NCBI RefSeq assembly: GCF_024346055.1
Contig: NZ_JAGQCH010000008.1
Coordinates: 62,001-126,000 of the forward strand
Direction: 5' to 3'
Length of the DNA stretch: 64,000 nt
DNA from: Cyanobium sp. Cruz CV13-4-11
Lineage (GTDB): Bacteria > Cyanobacteriota > Cyanobacteriia > PCC-6307 > Cyanobiaceae
The position numbers and the translations under genes are program-made. Positions 8,131-19,529 of the stretch are shown one piece after another. The number at the start of each line of letters is the position of its first letter. Position 1 is the stretch's first letter. Below the pieces are notes generated by a model. The model made no database searches, was not told the DNA's origin, and saw nothing but the letters and a program-made list of their open reading frames with translations.

Positions 8131-9048
8131 ATGGGGGATCGCATGCTGAGGGCCACCGGAGCTGGCGGCGGCATCCGGATGGTGGCGGTCACCACCACCT
8201 CTGCCATCCGCCAGGCCCGCGACCGCCACGGCCTCTCCTTCCTCACCACCGCCCTGCTGGGCCGGGCCATGACCGCGGGCCTGCTGCTGGCCAGCTCGAT
8301 GAAGGTGGCCCATGGCCGGGTCAACCTCCGCATTCAGTCCGATGGACCCCTGCGGGGCCTGACGGTGGATGCGGGGCGGGATGGCACCGTGCGCGGCTAC
8401 GTGGGTCGGCCGCAGCTCGAGTTGGATCTGCTGACCGATACGGCCGGCGGCCACCAGTTCGACTTTCGCCGCGCCACCGGCACCGGCTACCTGCATGTGG
8501 TGCGGGACCGGGGCCAGGGGGAACCCTTCAGCAGCACCGTCGAGCTGGTGAGTGGCGGCATCGGTGAGGACGTGGCCTCCTACCTGCTCCATTCCGAACA
8601 GACCCCCTCGGCCCTGTTCGTGGGCGAGACGATCGATAGCAGCGGCGTGCGCTGTGCCGGTGGGGTTCTGGTGCAGGTGCTGCCGAAGGCGGCGCGGGAA
8701 CCGGCCCTGGTGGCGCTGCTGGAGGAGCGCTGCCGGGAAATCACCGGCTTCAGCGAGCGGCTCGCCGCCAATGCCCACCAGCTCCACGCCCTGTTCGAGG
8801 ACATCTTTCCGGACCTCGATCCCCAGCCCCTCGAGGCGGGCTCGATCGAGCAGTCCGTGCAGTTCCACTGCCCCTGCAGCCGCCACCGCAGCGTCAGCGC
8901 TCTCAAGCTGCTGGGCCGCGATGAACTCACCGCCATGCTCCATGAGGATGGCCAGGCGGAGTTGACCTGCCATTTCTGCAATGAGGTGTACCGGGTGGAG
9001 GCCCCCGAGCTGCAGGAGCTGATTGACGAGTTGGCCCCCGTGGCCTGA
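8131..9048 (+). CDS. hslO: Hsp33 redox-regulated chaperone
   Basis: 305 residues from the ATG at 8131. Hsp33 is a cytoplasmic holdase activated by oxidation. The N-terminal substrate-binding domain (residues about 5-230) is followed by the C-terminal redox switch: C247-x-C249 and C280-x2-C283, the four zinc-binding cysteines. All four are present, so redox activation should work. The gene follows the ABC ATPase gene on the same strand and is convergent with the CPP1-like gene. Confidence 0.96.
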
Positions 9049-12623: not shown

Positions 12624-14981
12624 GTGACCCTGTCTGCCGCCCGTCCAGTCACACCCGCCGAGGCGGCGACGTCATCCGCAAGCGACGACACCCTCACACC
12701 GGCGGCTGATTTCCCGGTGACCGCCCCAGCGGCCTATCCGGTCTTCTATCGCACTTACAGCCGCAAGACCCCAGCCGGCGGTCGGGAGAGCTGGCATGAG
12801 GTCGCCGAGCGCAACCTGGAAGGCCTGCGGGTCCTCGGCTCCCTCGAGGCGGACGAAGTGGAGCTGATCCGGCGCATGCAGCGCCACCAGATGGCACTCC
12901 CCTCCGGCCGCTGGCTGTGGATCGGTGGTACGGGCTGGATCGAACAACCCGAGAACTTCTCCGGGGCCTACAACTGCACCTCCACCAACCTGGTGGACTG
13001 GGAAGCCTTCGCCCTGATGATGGACCTGGCGATGATGGGCTGCGGCACTGGCGCCATCATTGAGCCCCATCTGATCAACCGACTGCCGAAGGTGCGAAAC
13101 ACCCTCGTCATTGATGGGGTCTCCGATATCGGTGTCACGCCGATCGGCTCTCGCCAGCAGCAGACCACCCACCGGATCGACGGCCAGCAGGTCAATGTGC
13201 GGGTGGGTGACACCCGAGCCGGCTGGGTGGAGAGCTACCGGCTGCTGCTCAACCTCTGCAGCGATGAGCGTTTCGACGGTCCGGTCCACGTGTCTGTCGA
13301 CCTGTCCGATGTGCGGCCCGTGGGCGAAACCCTCAAGGGCTTCGGCGGCATGGCCAACCCCGTGAAGTTGAGAGATCTCTACGGCCGTGTCGCCCAGCTC
13401 CTCAACAGGGCCCAGGGCCGCCAGCTCACCTCGGTGGAGTGCTGCCTGCTGATCGATGAGGCAGCGGTAACGATTGTGGCCGGCAACATCCGCCGCAGCG
13501 CTGGCATGCGCCAGTTCTGCGCCGACGATGATTCCGCCCTCGGTGCCAAGGAGAACCTCTGGCAGCAGGACGCCCAAGGCAACTGGCGCATTGATCCCGA
13601 GCGTGATGCCCTGCGCATGGCCAACCACACCCGTGTGTTTCACGTTCGCCCCAGCCACGAGGTGGTGCTGGAAGCGGTCAACAAGCAGTTCCAGTCAGGC
13701 GAGGGCGCCATCCAGTTCGCTCCTGAAGCGATCGCCCGCTCCAATGCCGACCTCCTCACCACCCCCGAGCTGCGCACCGAGTTCATCGGCATCTACTGCG
13801 ACCAGGGACGGGAGGAGGCCGGCCGCTGGCTGCAGCTGCACCACCCGCAGATCAGCGACGCCGAACTTGAGCACCGGCTTGGCCGCTACGGACTCAACCC
13901 CTGTGGTGAGATTCTTGGCGCCGATTTCCACTGCAACCTGGCCGAGATCCACCTCAACCGGATCGACCCGGCCGATCACCAGGCCCAGGCCGACGCCTTC
14001 AAGGCCGGTGGCCTGGCGGTGGCCTGCCTGCTGAATCATCGCTTTGAGGTTGAGCGTTACCGCCAGAGCCGGGCCTGGGATCCGATCGTGGGTGTCAGTT
14101 TCACCGGCCTGTTTGATTTCTTCGTGCATGCCTTCGGCACCCCCTGGTTGCAGTGGTGGGAGGCCGGTCGCCCGGACTCCGAAGAGGGTCGGGCGTTCCG
14201 GGCCGAAGAGGCGGCCTACCTGTCGCGCTGGAAGCAATGCGTCCATGACGCAGTGTGGGACTACTGCGATCGGCACGGCATGCGCCGTCCTAACCGTTGC
14301 ACCACCGTCCAGCCGGCGGGCACCAAGAGCCTGCTCACCGGCGCCAGCCCCGGCTGGCATCCCCCCAAGGCCCAGCGCTTCATTCGACGCATCACCTTCC
14401 GCAAGAACGATCCGGTGGCGCTGGCCTGCATGGACTATGGCTATGCGATCGTTCCCTCCCAGTCGGACAAGGACGAACAGGGACGCCTGCTGAATGATCC
14501 CTTCGATCCACGCTGCACCGAGTGGCTGGTGGAGATCCCCACCGAGGTGAGCTGGGCCAATCTGCCTGGCGCCGATCAGGTGGAGATCAACAACTTCTCC
14601 GCCCTGGCCCAGTTCGACTTTTATATGCAGGTGCAACGTCACTTCACCACCCACAACACCTCGGCCACGGTGGAGTTCCGCGAGCATGAGATCGAGCCTT
14701 TGGCCGCCGCCATCCATCAGGCGATTGAGACTAGCGAAGGTTATATCTCTGCGGCCCTGCTGGCTCGCTTCGATGCCAATGCCACCTTCCCCAGATTGCC
14801 CTTCGAACCCATCGATCAAGCCACCTATCACCGAATGGTTGTTGAGGTGGAGCAACGCCGCCAGTGCGGGGATTTCTTTCTGGCTTTGCAGAAGTACGAC
14901 CGAGGTGAATCGATCGAAGCCGGCCCAGCCGGCTGTGACTCCGACAAGTGCCTGCTGCCGCTGGCCATACCCGAAAACTGA
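12624..14981 (+). CDS. nrdJ: Adenosylcobalamin-dependent ribonucleoside-triphosphate reductase (class II)
   Basis: 785 residues from the GTG at 12624, chosen because upstream sequence overlaps the divergent methyltransferase and looks non-coding. Monomeric class II RNR reduces ribonucleoside triphosphates using adenosylcobalamin. Seen: an N-terminal redox cysteine in YNCTSTN (C118), GCGTGAIIEPHL, the RSAGMRQF segment, the active-site NPCGEILG motif, and the CTTVQPAGTKSLLTGASPGW loop. The C terminus carries CDSDKCLLP, the paired cysteines that re-reduce the active site. This enzyme is the usual RNR of picocyanobacteria. The 144 bases upstream show no riboswitch or clear NrdR box. Confidence 0.95.
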   Translation: MTLSAARPVTPAEAATSSASDDTLTPAADFPVTAPAAYPVFYRTYSRKTPAGGRESWHEVAERNLEGLRVLGSLEADEVELIRRMQRHQMALPSGRWLWIGGTGWIEQPENFSGAYNCTSTNLVDWEAFALMMDLAMMGCGTGAIIEPHLINRLPKVRNTLVIDGVSDIGVTPIGSRQQQTTHRIDGQQVNVRVGDTRAGWVESYRLLLNLCSDERFDGPVHVSVDLSDVRPVGETLKGFGGMANPVKLRDLYGRVAQLLNRAQGRQLTSVECCLLIDEAAVTIVAGNIRRSAGMRQFCADDDSALGAKENLWQQDAQGNWRIDPERDALRMANHTRVFHVRPSHEVVLEAVNKQFQSGEGAIQFAPEAIARSNADLLTTPELRTEFIGIYCDQGREEAGRWLQLHHPQISDAELEHRLGRYGLNPCGEILGADFHCNLAEIHLNRIDPADHQAQADAFKAGGLAVACLLNHRFEVERYRQSRAWDPIVGVSFTGLFDFFVHAFGTPWLQWWEAGRPDSEEGRAFRAEEAAYLSRWKQCVHDAVWDYCDRHGMRRPNRCTTVQPAGTKSLLTGASPGWHPPKAQRFIRRITFRKNDPVALACMDYGYAIVPSQSDKDEQGRLLNDPFDPRCTEWLVEIPTEVSWANLPGADQVEINNFSALAQFDFYMQVQRHFTTHNTSATVEFREHEIEPLAAAIHQAIETSEGYISAALLARFDANATFPRLPFEPIDQATYHRMVVEVEQRRQCGDFFLALQKYDRGESIEAGPAGCDSDKCLLPLAIPEN

Positions 14982-15057: not shown

Positions 15058-15915
15058 CTATTCGACGCTCGAAACGAGCGTTCTGATCTCGCGATGACTG
15101 AGAGGATCGGTAGGATCAATAATCACCAGACGGTCGCGACCGCCACTCTTGGCCATGAGCAGGGCCTTGTCGGCACGGCGGAATGTAGCGTCATAATTCT
15201 CATCTGACCTGTGCTCAGTGAGGCCCATGCTGGCCGTCAGATTTAGTTCCCTGTCATCAATGGAAACCCGCATGTCACGGATGTTGGCCAACATTCGTTT
15301 GGCAACGATTTCAGCCGTGGAAAGATCGGCATCGATCAGAAGGGCCATGAATTCTTCCCCTCCCCAGCGGCCAATGATGTCGTAGTGACGTAAGCTGCTT
15401 AACAGGGCCTTGACGAAATCCACCAGCATCAGATCGCCGGTGGCGTGGCCATACTCGTCGTTGATCAACTTGAAGTGATCCACATCAAGGATGATCATTG
15501 AATAGGTGGAGCCATGTCGTGCGGCTCGTTGGTCTTCCTCTAGGCAGCGTTCGGCCATGAAGCGACGGTTAGAAATTCCCGTCAGCGAATCATGGGTTGA
15601 GGCCTCAAAAAGCGAAAGATTTAGTTCTTTGAGTGAGGCCTGGTAGAGGTCGGAAATCCGTACCACCCGCTTAATTTGGCGCAGTTGCTTTTCGTAGCGA
15701 TTCGTCAGACTTCGATTGTTTTCTAGAACGTGCGACTGGTAGAGATCTGAGATGTCAGCCACCCTCTCCAGTCGGTCAACCTGCTCTTCAATCCGATTCC
15801 ACAGGCGAGCCAATAGGTCACGCACAGGATCGTTGTCGTAGCGTTTATCGGCAAGAATTGCCATCACCTCCAGCTCCAACTGAACGTCAGCCTTTTGGAT
15901 GGAGCGGTCGAACAT
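15058..15915 (-). CDS. siaD: SiaD-type diguanylate cyclase (GGDEF)
   Basis: 285 residues. An N-terminal helical signalling region contains two related repeats (RVADISDLYQ at 51-60 and RVVRISDLYQ at 84-93, 33 residues apart). A GGDEF domain follows (about 105-275). The active loop is RWGGEEF (GGEEF at 185-189) and the product-inhibition I-site RxxD is intact at R176-D179. It should make cyclic di-GMP in the cytoplasm. Last gene of the siaABCD order, one base after siaC. In Pseudomonas aeruginosa SiaD is activated by binding unphosphorylated SiaC; the same is inferred here. AT-richer than neighbouring genes. Confidence 0.93.
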   Translation of the reverse strand: MFDRSIQKADVQLELEVMAILADKRYDNDPVRDLLARLWNRIEEQVDRLERVADISDLYQSHVLENNRSLTNRYEKQLRQIKRVVRISDLYQASLKELNLSLFEASTHDSLTGISNRRFMAERCLEEDQRAARHGSTYSMIILDVDHFKLINDEYGHATGDLMLVDFVKALLSSLRHYDIIGRWGGEEFMALLIDADLSTAEIVAKRMLANIRDMRVSIDDRELNLTASMGLTEHRSDENYDATFRRADKALLMAKSGGRDRLVIIDPTDPLSHREIRTLVSSVE

Positions 15916-15916
15916 G

Positions 15917-16312
15917 TTAGGCGTTAATAGAGAGAATCAAGAAGGGAAAGGTATAATCTTCTTTGAATTCAGAACCCAGCTCAGCGGAGCGTGGATTTCT
16001 ATCGTCAAACATCCACTGCACCAATACTTCTTTCCCATTCTCGAAGGCTGTCTGTAGTAAATCAAAAATATCGATCATGAAACGAATGCTGCTGGTGTTG
16101 AGATAATTCAAGTGCAACTCCAGGGTCAGCGAGTGCTGGGCACTTGAAAGATAGGAGTCAATCCATTGAATCAGTTGGTCGTACAGTTCAAACGAATTCT
16201 CCGGATAGGATTCGCCGCTCATGACCACGACTCCAGCGTTCCAGTCCGCCCTGATCGAAGGGCTGGACTGCGAACCAGGCACGGAGAGATTGAGTTCTTC
16301 GGTACTGCTCAT
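15917..16312 (-). CDS. siaC: SiaC family regulatory protein (DUF1987)
   Basis: 131 residues from the ATG at 16312. Matches SiaC/DUF1987 by the early VPGSQSSPSI segment, SGESYPENSFELY, and the core LNYLNTSSIRFMIDIFDLLQ. T73 in NTSS aligns by eye with Thr68 of P. aeruginosa SiaC, the residue phosphorylated by SiaB and dephosphorylated by SiaA. The C-terminal EFKEDYTFPFLI segment is also conserved. Starts four bases after siaB and ends one base before siaD. A 60-base stretch inside it (16021-16080) has only 22 G+C, against roughly two thirds in surrounding genes. Confidence 0.93.
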   Translation of the reverse strand: MSSTEELNLSVPGSQSSPSIRADWNAGVVVMSGESYPENSFELYDQLIQWIDSYLSSAQHSLTLELHLNYLNTSSIRFMIDIFDLLQTAFENGKEVLVQWMFDDRNPRSAELGSEFKEDYTFPFLILSINA

Positions 16313-16316
16313 GGGA

Positions 16317-16865
16317 TCAGATGATGGCCCGAAGGCTGAAGAAGGCACGGCCGGGCTCAAGGGGATCAAGGGAGGCCTCCATGGGTTGGCTTGAACGCCT
16401 GGCAATCTCGATCAGACCCAGACCGGCTCCCTGCCCGGGGGTCTGGCTGTGGGGTTGGCGTAACTGCTGTTTGTAGAGCCGCTTCAGTTGGGCCTTGTCG
16501 CAGTCTGCGAGTTCGTGGATCCGCTGGATCAAGGCCTGTCCGTCCTCAATCTGTACGAGGTTACCTGCGCATACGGCATAATGGCCAGCTTCCGCAGCGG
16601 CGATCACAACCGTCGCGGAGGATTCGGCGTCGCTGAAGCCGCAACAAGTTGCATAATTCCTGATATTCTGGCTCATCTCGATATAAACGCTGAACACATC
16701 CATGACCTCCAGTTCGGAGGCGTGATTGGATTCTATATGTTCTTTTAGGGCGGATCCGATCTCCCCGATCAAGGTGGTGGAGATGGGACCGTTGAAGCAG
16801 ATGAGGATCTGCTGATTGCTGAAGAACTCTCGTAGCGAGATTAAGTTGGTCGTGCTGATTGTCAT
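16317..16865 (-). CDS. siaB: SiaB family protein kinase (DUF6272)
   Basis: 182 residues. A GHKL-like ATP-binding protein: the helix with SVYIEMSQNIRNYA (Glu and Asn of the N-box, near residues 59-72) and the glycine box GAGLGLIEIARR (about 146-157) are visible. By family it phosphorylates SiaC on a threonine, countering the SiaA phosphatase. Soluble, no membrane segment. Sits between siaA (90-base gap) and siaC (4-base gap) in one transcription unit. Confidence 0.92.
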   Translation of the reverse strand: MTISTTNLISLREFFSNQQILICFNGPISTTLIGEIGSALKEHIESNHASELEVMDVFSVYIEMSQNIRNYATCCGFSDAESSATVVIAAAEAGHYAVCAGNLVQIEDGQALIQRIHELADCDKAQLKRLYKQQLRQPHSQTPGQGAGLGLIEIARRSSQPMEASLDPLEPGRAFFSLRAII

Positions 16866-16955
16866 CGCATTGCCTCCGCTTCGGACAGCGAAATGGTTCC
16901 CGTCAGTGGAGAAAGGGGCATGATGGTAATGGAATGGAGCATCAGGCAGCTCTCC

Positions 16956-18239
16956 CTAGGAGAAACGGAAGGAAAGGATGGTGATGTCATCCCGCTGGGG
17001 ATGACGGCCCCGAAACTGGTCAAGGGCATCGGCGAGTGCCTGGCGCTGGCGATCCAGAGGTTGACGGGCTAACTGGATCAGCCATTCCTTGAACTGCTGG
17101 GTGCCCAGGGAAAAACCGTCCTCGCCACCCGATTGGTCGAGCAGGCCGTCGGTGGTCAGGTAGTAGGTGCAGTCTGGCAATAGTGGGATGTCGTGGTCGG
17201 TATAGGCACCGATGCGCTGACTGCAGATGGCGCGAGGATCTCCTCCGAGCATGTGCATGGTTTGCCCATCACTCCAATAGAGATTGATCTTCGCTCCCGA
17301 AAATCTAAGTGTCCTGGCTTCAAAGTCAAGGCGGACCAGGCCAATATCCATGCTGGTCGCGATGGACTTGCTCATTTTAGCCCCGAGCAAAAGGGTGCGC
17401 ATTGCCCTATCGGTGCAGCTTAGAATTGCGGCAGGGGAAGTGATCCCAACTTCCATGATTGAGCGATCAATCCCTGCCCGGGCCAGCATCGTCATCATGG
17501 CGCCAGAGACCCCATGGCCGGCACAGTCGGCCACCCCGGCAAGGCAGTGGCCGCCTTCGGAGTGGAAGATGTAGTAGTCACCTCCAACCGTGTCCCGAGG
17601 CAGCCAGAGGATGAAATGGTCTTCGCCGAAAGTGTCCTGGAGTTGCCGATCCGGCAGGATCGAGCGCTGCAGCAGTCCGGCGTAGTTGATAGAGGACTCG
17701 ATTTGTTGATTGGCTTCCATTAACTGCTGATTGCTGGTCTCTCCCGCCACCAGAGCATCACGCATCTTGACGAGCACCATGTTGAAGGCCTGGGCCAGCT
17801 TGGCGATTTCGTCGTTTCTCCGGATTTTCAGCAGGCTGGTCATGTCATTGCCTTCGATTTCACTGGCTTCTCGCACCAATCGTGCGATCGGCAGAATGAT
17901 TCGCCGAGTGATGATCTGATAGGAGATGATCGCCAGTATGGCCAGCAACAACGTGAGAATCAACGAGACATAGCTCTCCGCAGAACGGGCTCCCGGAACC
18001 ATCAGCAACTGGATGGCGGCAATCACCAAATACAACAGAACCAGCCCATTGACAATGGCAATGAGTGTGAACACCTGTTGAATCGAGGCCACTTTTCTTG
18101 GCGATGGCAACGGGTGAGCTTGTCGCGAGCTCCTGTTGTCGCTGCTGGCCTCGCCCCCCCCGTCTTCCGGAGGACGGACCGGGATCTTCATCGCCTGAGG
18201 ATTCTTTAGGCCCGTGGTGGCCTTCAGGGTGTCGGGCAA
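16956..18239 (-). CDS. siaA: SiaA-type membrane PP2C/SpoIIE phosphatase with HAMP domain
   Basis: 427 residues. A Ser/Pro-rich cytoplasmic N terminus, two membrane segments (about 52-80 and 88-112) joined by a loop of under 10 residues, a HAMP-like linker (about 112-165), then a PP2C/SpoIIE phosphatase domain. Metal ligands are intact: GGDYY at 219-223, ADCAGHG at 237-243, a TTDGLLDQ motif and RDDITI near the end. By family it dephosphorylates SiaC and so turns on SiaD. The P. aeruginosa protein has a large periplasmic sensor between the two helices; here it is missing. First gene of the operon, divergent from the Ca2+/H+ exchanger gene. Confidence 0.92.
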   Translation of the reverse strand: MPDTLKATTGLKNPQAMKIPVRPPEDGGGEASSDNRSSRQAHPLPSPRKVASIQQVFTLIAIVNGLVLLYLVIAAIQLLMVPGARSAESYVSLILTLLLAILAIISYQIITRRIILPIARLVREASEIEGNDMTSLLKIRRNDEIAKLAQAFNMVLVKMRDALVAGETSNQQLMEANQQIESSINYAGLLQRSILPDRQLQDTFGEDHFILWLPRDTVGGDYYIFHSEGGHCLAGVADCAGHGVSGAMMTMLARAGIDRSIMEVGITSPAAILSCTDRAMRTLLLGAKMSKSIATSMDIGLVRLDFEARTLRFSGAKINLYWSDGQTMHMLGGDPRAICSQRIGAYTDHDIPLLPDCTYYLTTDGLLDQSGGEDGFSLGTQQFKEWLIQLARQPLDRQRQALADALDQFRGRHPQRDDITILSFRFS

Positions 18240-18372
18240 TCAGGAGAATGCTGCTGAATCCATTCTGCGCTGAAAGTCCCTGGTGCGCCGTCAACACCGC
18301 GACCCTGAAGGTCGTCGTAGGCCCACGATCCTGCAGCGTCCACGTTGATGGAGTGCCTGGCGATGGCCCCGT

Positions 18373-18399
18373 TGGTCAACAATCGGTCACAATGGGTCA
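18373..18399. promoter_or_regulatory. Triple GGTCA direct repeat in the siaA/cax intergenic region
   Basis: GGTCA occurs at 18373, 18385 and 18395, each followed by A or C and an AAT-type spacer, at 12- and 10-base spacing (about one helical turn). It lies between the divergent siaA and Ca2+/H+ exchanger genes and just before the preferred exchanger start, so it could be an operator. This is inferred from spacing only. Confidence 0.3.
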
Positions 18400-18416
18400 C
18401 CGAATCGGCCCCCTCC

Positions 18417-19529
18417 ATGCCCGCTCGCCTGCGCATCGCCATCGGCCTGCTGGTGATGCTGCCGGTGGCAGCGGCCGCCGACCGGCTCCACTGGGGCGAT
18501 GGGATCGTCTTCGTCACCTCGATCCTTTCGATCATCCCCCTGGCGATCCTGCTCAGCACCGCCACAGAGGAGCTGTCCATCACCCTTGGCCCCTCGATCG
18601 GGGCCCTGCTCAATGCCCTGTTCGGCAACGCAACCGAACTGATCATTGCCCTGGCAGCCCTGAAGGCCGGTCTGGTGGACATCGTCAAGGCCAGCATCAC
18701 CGGGACGGTGATGGCCAACCTGCTGCTGGCCCTGGGCCTGTCGATGCTGGTGGGGGGCATCGGCCGCACTGAGCAACGCTTCCAGCCGGTGGTGGCCCGG
18801 GTCAACGGTTCGGCCATGACCCTGGCCGTTCTGGCGATCCTGATCCCGAGCCTGCGGGGGATGGTGGCTGGCGATGGGGGGCTGGATGCCGGCGCCGCCG
18901 AATCCTTTTCGCTGTTCGTGGCCTGGGTGCTGCTGGCCGTCTATGCCCTCACGCTGCTGTTCTCCTTGAAAACCCACCGCACTCTTTATGCGGTGGCGGA
19001 GGCCGACCTGCTCGAGGACGGAGCGGATCCAGACCACCCCGGCGCCAGTAGTCACCGCCCCCCCCTGCTGCCCTGGGTCGCCGTGCTGTTGGCGGCCACC
19101 GTTGGCCTGGCCTATGCCTCCGAGCTGTTTGTGGGCGTCGTCGAGACCGTCACCGAATCCCTCGGACTCTCGGCCCTGTTCACCGGTGTGATTCTGCTCC
19201 CCCTGCTGGGTGGTGCCGCCGAGTACCTCACCGCCGTGAGCATGGCGCGTAAGGACAAGATGGACCTGGCGGTGTCGGTGGCCCTGGGCTCCACCCTGCT
19301 GGTGGGGCTGCTGGTGGTGCCGGTGCTGCTGCTGGTGGCCCCCCTGCTCGGGCATCCGCTCGACCTCAGCTTCAACGTCTATGAGGTGGTGGCGGTGGCC
19401 ACGGCCGTTCTGGTGAGCAACCTGGTCAGCCTCGACGGTCGCTCCGACTGGCTCGAGGGTGTGCTGCTGCTGGCCGCCTATGCCATCCTCGCCGCCGGGT
19501 TCTTCTTCCAGAGCAGCCCCCTGACATGA
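18417..19529 (+). CDS. Calcium/proton exchanger (CaCA family, Cax type)
   Basis: 370 residues from the ATG at 18417; an in-frame ATG at 18345 would add 24 residues. About 11 hydrophobic helices in two halves, each with the alpha-repeat motif of the family: GNATELIIALAALKAG in the first half and GGAAEYLTAVSMARKDKMDLA in the second. The acidic linker (about residues 200-225: EADLLEDGADPDHPG) separates the halves. It exports Ca2+ in exchange for protons. The stop codon overlaps the pentapeptide gene start by four bases (ATGA), so the two are likely co-translated. Confidence 0.92.
   Translation: MPARLRIAIGLLVMLPVAAAADRLHWGDGIVFVTSILSIIPLAILLSTATEELSITLGPSIGALLNALFGNATELIIALAALKAGLVDIVKASITGTVMANLLLALGLSMLVGGIGRTEQRFQPVVARVNGSAMTLAVLAILIPSLRGMVAGDGGLDAGAAESFSLFVAWVLLAVYALTLLFSLKTHRTLYAVAEADLLEDGADPDHPGASSHRPPLLPWVAVLLAATVGLAYASELFVGVVETVTESLGLSALFTGVILLPLLGGAAEYLTAVSMARKDKMDLAVSVALGSTLLVGLLVVPVLLLVAPLLGHPLDLSFNVYEVVAVATAVLVSNLVSLDGRSDWLEGVLLLAAYAILAAGFFFQSSPLT

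Follow-up and report, generated by a model that had tools for sequence, protein, structure and literature searches.

The window, that is the whole 64,000-nucleotide stretch of DNA analysed here from Cyanobium sp. Cruz CV13-4-11, a small cyanobacterium of freshwater type, carries a siaABCD operon that is a clade-wide variant of the known SiaABCD system of Pseudomonas aeruginosa. The four-gene Sia switch is used by Pseudomonas to turn on the clumping signal cyclic di-GMP. The cyanobacterial operon resembles its P. aeruginosa counterpart in gene order, phosphosite, catalytic residues, double SiaC-binding motif and I-site, and differs from it in that its SiaA is without the external domain of about 290 residues. 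We consider it likely that SiaD is controlled by partner switching of the Pseudomonas type, with the input entering through a membrane hairpin and no external sensor. As far as sequence can show, picocyanobacteria would place a cyclase under threonine-phosphorylation control, a subject on which no paper was found in the literature searched.

The sia operon and its genomic neighbours

The four genes form a single run on the minus strand (18239-15058) in the order known from P. aeruginosa, and lie where the earlier note had placed them. The siaA variant (16956..18239, minus strand) encodes 427 residues from a TTG start, a codon that aligns with ATG in three relatives; its product matches PF00672, PF07228 and, in part, NF038263. 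It is followed by siaB (16317..16865, minus strand; 182 residues; NF038264, structure 6kko_A), the gene of a GHKL-type SiaC kinase, siaC (15917..16312, minus strand; 131 residues; PF09345, NF038265, structures 6kko/6k4f), that of the switch phosphoprotein, and siaD (15058..15915, minus strand; 285 residues; NF038266, full-length alignment with 7e6g), that of a diguanylate cyclase with a stalk. The gaps between siaA and siaB, siaB and siaC, and siaC and siaD are 90, 4 and 1 bp, respectively, and the order, adjacency and shared strand of the genes are the same in all cyanobacterial loci.

Divergent from siaA lies cax (18345..19529, plus strand), rightly recognized in the earlier note as the gene of a Ca2+/H+ exchanger (TIGR00378, 370 bits), and convergent with siaD lies nrdJ (12801..14981, plus strand; PF21995), encoding a class II ribonucleotide reductase. 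A functional link between exchanger and switch, which had also been proposed, finds no support: at two empty sites (G250 and G268), which are occupied by sia in other members of the genus, about 60 bp separate nrdJ from the cax that directly follows it, and in the other five genera no cax adjoins sia. We therefore judge cax to be an incidental neighbour, outside the Sia system. nrdJ adjoins siaD in most cyanobacterial loci (at least 26 genomes); being convergent, it is disfavoured as a functional partner and best read as marking the ancestral sia site, in our judgement likewise outside the Sia system.

SiaB, SiaC and SiaD retain the features of the P. aeruginosa switch

Family membership was assessed with NF038263-NF038266, the curated equivalog models of NCBI for SiaA-SiaD. 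SiaB (NF038264, 253.3 bits against a cut-off of 225), SiaC (NF038265, 185.7 against 150) and SiaD (NF038266, 301.1 against 290) all pass at equivalog level, and SiaC also matches PF09345 (E=3.5e-36). Among solved structures, the best matches of all four proteins are the P. aeruginosa Sia proteins themselves, namely 6kko_A for SiaB (E=3e-59), 6kko/6k4f for SiaC (E=2e-39), 7e6g for SiaD (E=2e-71) and 6k4e for the PP2C domain of SiaA (E=3e-87). To the slr1658/slr1659 superfamily regulators of other cyanobacteria, SiaB and SiaC are weakly similar (18 bits against cut-offs of 100).

Residue conservation was scored over 32 cyanobacterial and 57 other operons, across which the YLNTSSI loop of SiaC, the PP2C metal-site residues, the N-box and G-box of SiaB, and the GGEEF and RxxD I-site of SiaD are near-invariant. 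T73 of SiaC, which sits in the YLNTSSI loop and had been singled out as the phospho-threonine, aligns exactly with T68 of P. aeruginosa, an experimentally proven phosphosite (PMC7647112). The surrounding N72-T73-S74-S75 is intact in 31 of the 32 cyanobacterial copies, the sole exception being a decaying copy, and T73 is present in all 57 non-cyanobacterial ones. SiaB has the N-box residues E63 and N67 and the G-box GAGLGL, and E63 corresponds in the alignment to E61 of P. aeruginosa, the predicted catalytic residue. SiaD has GGEEF at residues 185-189 and the I-site RHYD at 176-179, in agreement with its earlier description as a GGEEF cyclase with an intact I-site. A point against the switch reading comes from one sia-bearing genome (G195, locus L038), whose SiaB has K in place of the N-box E63 in an otherwise intact operon.

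Conservation extends to the surface on which SiaC and SiaD meet. In the SiaC-SiaD crystal structure, the stalk of SiaD bears two copies of a SiaC-binding motif, the proximal of which contacts SiaC through S82, D83, R84 and Q86 (PMC8457831). The stalk encoded in the window likewise contains two motifs, RVADISDLYQ (51-60) and RVVRISDLYQ (83-92), and its S88, D89 and Q92, which correspond to S82, D83 and Q86, are kept in 31, 32 and 31 of the 32 cyanobacterial copies. On the SiaC side, R108 and E115, the equivalents of R103 and E110, are kept in every copy with sequence there. That the interface is conserved besides the enzymes is the strongest sequence evidence for the same switch operating.

Within these motifs, residues 58 and 90 of SiaD are both L in 14 of the 15 copies of the close group to which the window belongs. 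Most other cyanobacterial SiaD proteins have R in the proximal motif and often in the distal one too. L or R occupies the distal position in most cyanobacterial copies, in contrast to G, A or V in proteobacteria, where G or A prevails in the distal motif and R in the proximal one.

SiaA keeps the phosphatase and lacks the external sensor

SiaA scores 405 bits against NF038263, well below the cut-off of 700, and covers only positions 307-657 of the 658 in the model, because the N-terminal half, an extracytoplasmic sensor of about 290 residues, is missing. The operon, which had been called complete, is so at equivalog level for SiaB, SiaC and SiaD and not for the sensing half of SiaA. The same half of the model is matched by four divergent cyanobacterial SiaA proteins (397-422 bits), whereas three proteobacterial ones score 940-1150 bits across its full length; since the cut-off demands the sensor, curated annotation misses the cyanobacterial SiaA. 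The HAMP and PP2C domains are both present (PF00672, PF07228), and D221, D238, G241, D364, G365 and D417/D418 of the QRDD motif are the equivalents of the P. aeruginosa residues D457, D474, G477, D600, G601 and D653.

The protein consists of an N-terminal tail, TM1 (about 53-80), a turn of about four residues, TM2 leading into HAMP, a coiled coil and a PP2C/SpoIIE phosphatase. An AlphaFold2 model (mean pLDDT 77) has a helix at 53-80, a turn at 81-84, a single helix from 85 to 130 running into HAMP and no further folded domain, residues 1-49 being of very low confidence; its phosphatase domain matches 6k4e with a target TM-score of 0.93-0.94. The input region of SiaA consists solely of a pair of transmembrane helices with a very short external linker, as shown by the modelled turn and the fixed spacing of the helices.

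This short-hairpin SiaA is a fixed trait of the cyanobacterial clade, found in 30 of 30 complete cyanobacterial copies (leaving out L050, at a contig end, and L057, frameshifted with the hairpin still visible) and in 0 of 55 complete non-cyanobacterial, proteobacterial ones (leaving out L114 and L122, apparently truncated at contig ends). About 280-310 residues separate the helices of proteobacterial SiaA, against the short turn of the cyanobacterial protein. The distance from N64 in TM1 to S106 in TM2, both invariant, was determined in 21 non-redundant cyanobacterial sequences; it is 41 residues in all but one, which has 40. Conservation in TM1 equals that in HAMP (mean 0.64 for each), and I53, Q54, F57, N64, L68 and L71 are invariant.

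A mis-called siaA start does not hide the sensor, which would sit between TM1 and TM2, where the spacing is fixed; the cax start about 105 bp upstream also excludes it. No conserved upstream gene was found that could supply the missing sensor, the clusters common to several genera being only other genes of the divergent flank. Beyond cyanobacteria, no sensor-less SiaA occurs among the 55 complete named copies, nor do any of the equivalog-like loci sampled from Pseudomonadota encode one, TM1 and TM2 not being close together in them; the comparison covered top-scoring relatives only, so that rare cases may escape. Because the TM1 of Pseudomonas SiaA (GLRGKSVVALLLAC) is unlike the cyanobacterial one (SIQxxFxLIxxxNG), the input region is just as likely to have been exchanged as to have simply lost an internal segment.

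Possible input to the switch

The analysis establishes directly which genes and domains are present, which residues are conserved, the architecture of the hairpin, and the co-inheritance and vertical descent of the operon. At the level of sequence, family membership, residue conservation, gene order and an all-or-none pattern of inheritance give good support to the partner switch on a diguanylate cyclase that the earlier note envisaged. Phosphotransfer, dephosphorylation and SiaC-SiaD activation are carried over from P. aeruginosa. By this analogy, SiaB would phosphorylate SiaC on T73; SiaA, a HAMP-coupled PP2C phosphatase, would take the phosphate off; and unphosphorylated SiaC would bind both stalk motifs of SiaD and switch on cyclic di-GMP synthesis, which may be limited by product binding at the I-site. 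SiaA would most likely take its input from the membrane state, or from a membrane partner in contact with the hairpin.

In Pseudomonas, the stimulus and sensing part of SiaA are still debated, and carbon source, SDS and a cold-induced membrane change have been proposed (PMC7647112, PMC12834913). A lineage that has the switch without the external sensor offers a natural comparison for how SiaA senses. P. aeruginosa SiaA has been reported to respond to cold-induced membrane perturbation, replacement of its first 336 residues by those of CusS abolished the response, and polar residues of TM1 have been put forward as a candidate motif for sensing (PMC12834913). Because the swapped segment includes the external domain, that result does not demonstrate sensing by the transmembrane helices alone.

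The cyanobacterial protein lacks an external domain but retains a HAMP relay and a conserved pair of transmembrane helices, in which one Asn is invariant; this favours intramembrane sensing. We tentatively suggest, as a possibility that falls somewhat short of probable, that SiaA is an intramembrane-sensing Ser/Thr phosphatase whose hairpin, with its mid-helix Asn, may read the membrane state (e.g. cold or fluidity) and set cyclic di-GMP through HAMP and partner switching. If true, it would be a reduced input form that separates membrane sensing from sensing by an external domain. The conservation of TM1 and N64 could instead reflect dimer packing.

A serious but less likely alternative is that the sensor-less SiaA is simply unregulated, dephosphorylating SiaC constantly while the switch is set by SiaB (e.g. 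through the ATP level) or by expression of the operon. Such a phosphatase would fit the absence of any folded input domain and the intact catalytic core, and P. aeruginosa SiaB does consume ATP when SiaC is present (PMC7647112). However, HAMP and the coiled coil are retained, and the hairpin is fixed in length with a TM1 conserved like HAMP, where a plain anchor should drift more.

Some intramembrane-sensing histidine kinases use accessory membrane proteins. The hairpin might similarly be signalled by a separate membrane or periplasmic partner encoded elsewhere, as in small sensor kinases that depend on accessory proteins, and compact transmembrane hairpins without external domains do define the intramembrane-sensing histidine kinases, e.g. 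SaeS (PMC4388633). We regard such a partner as a serious alternative too, though an unlikely one in view of the lack of a linked candidate: only nrdJ and its far-side neighbours stay by sia across genera, and the genes upstream of sia vary between groups of genera.

Read as an intramembrane sensor, SiaA resembles histidine kinases of the SaeS and DesK type in taking its input through transmembrane helices with very short external linkers. It differs from them in its output, that of a Ser/Thr phosphatase acting on a STAS-like protein, and the likeness is one of architecture and not of homology. The input part of SiaB-SiaC-GGDEF modules varies widely. In Pseudomonadota, SiaB-SiaC-cyclase modules (NF038262; L168, L177, L183, L187, and L213 of Azospirillum) cluster a PP2C phosphatase, a SiaB-like kinase, SiaC and a GGDEF protein, as here, although SiaB of the NF038262-type modules is only 23-42% identical to that of the window. 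The SiaA-like PP2C phosphatases of L168, L177, L183 and L187 have no transmembrane helices, and L213, on a plasmid of Azospirillum oryzae, has genes for a HAMP histidine kinase and a diguanylate cyclase after those of a SpoIIE phosphatase, SiaB and SiaC.

Distribution, descent and loss

A survey of picocyanobacterial genomes, which the earlier note had called for, found SiaC in 32 of 400 Cyanobiaceae genomes, belonging to six of 59 genera, and SiaB in exactly the same 32, an all-or-nothing pattern. The named relatives are strains of Cyanobium, Synechococcus, Aphanothece and Vulcanococcus. Across the phylum, 386 genomes yielded only five strong SiaC matches, all in the genus of the window, and two other marginal partial ones at or below the cut-off.

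In a tree of concatenated SiaB, SiaC and SiaD, left unrooted and with its non-cyanobacterial set drawn from the best 80 matches, the cyanobacterial proteins form one clade, separated from 42 non-cyanobacterial operons (mostly Pseudomonadota) by a branch with an SH-aLRT of 100. The sia and nrdJ trees have 14 of 23 splits in common, compared to a random mean of 0.3. The location beside nrdJ and the agreement of the two trees point to an operon that entered here once and was passed on vertically thereafter. A recent transfer from Pseudomonas, where close relatives of the Sia proteins exist, or an assembly contamination is therefore highly improbable and refuted by the single clade, the nrdJ locus common to at least 26 genomes, the splits in common with nrdJ and the absence of the hairpin SiaA from the sampled proteobacteria.

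Within Cyanobiaceae, the operon has been inherited and repeatedly lost. Besides the two empty sites, G200 has a decaying copy, with a frameshifted siaA and a siaC that carries T73A and an in-frame stop, and G286 has a fused relic, in which a piece of the TM1-loop region of siaA is joined directly to the siaD stalk, beyond which lie a frameshift and a damaged GGEEF. The decay of siaD in G286, where siaB and siaC are missing, fits a dependence of SiaD on SiaC, weakly so as a single case. CRISPR-like repeats (CCCCGCACACGCGGGG) abut the siaA'-siaD relic at about 8350-8480 of locus L156 in this genome, which suggests that the deletion took place near a CRISPR array.

The cyclic di-GMP network of the cell

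The genome of the window has 17 GGDEF, 9 EAL and 5 PilZ matches. SiaD is thus not the only cyclase of the cell, and the EAL and PilZ matches imply degraders and receptors for its product. All three domains are matched in each of 13 sia-bearing genomes tested, and none of them in 6 of 13 tested family members without sia. Taken together, these counts make SiaD one cyclase in a real network. Aggregation or sheath formation, put forward earlier as a possible output, would be plausible by analogy with Pseudomonas. In five genomes (G062, G090, G198, G054 and G243) the PilZ matches lie in open frames of about 750 residues, as long as a PilZ-bearing cellulose synthase; the frames with PilZ matches in the genome of the window have only 134-183 residues.
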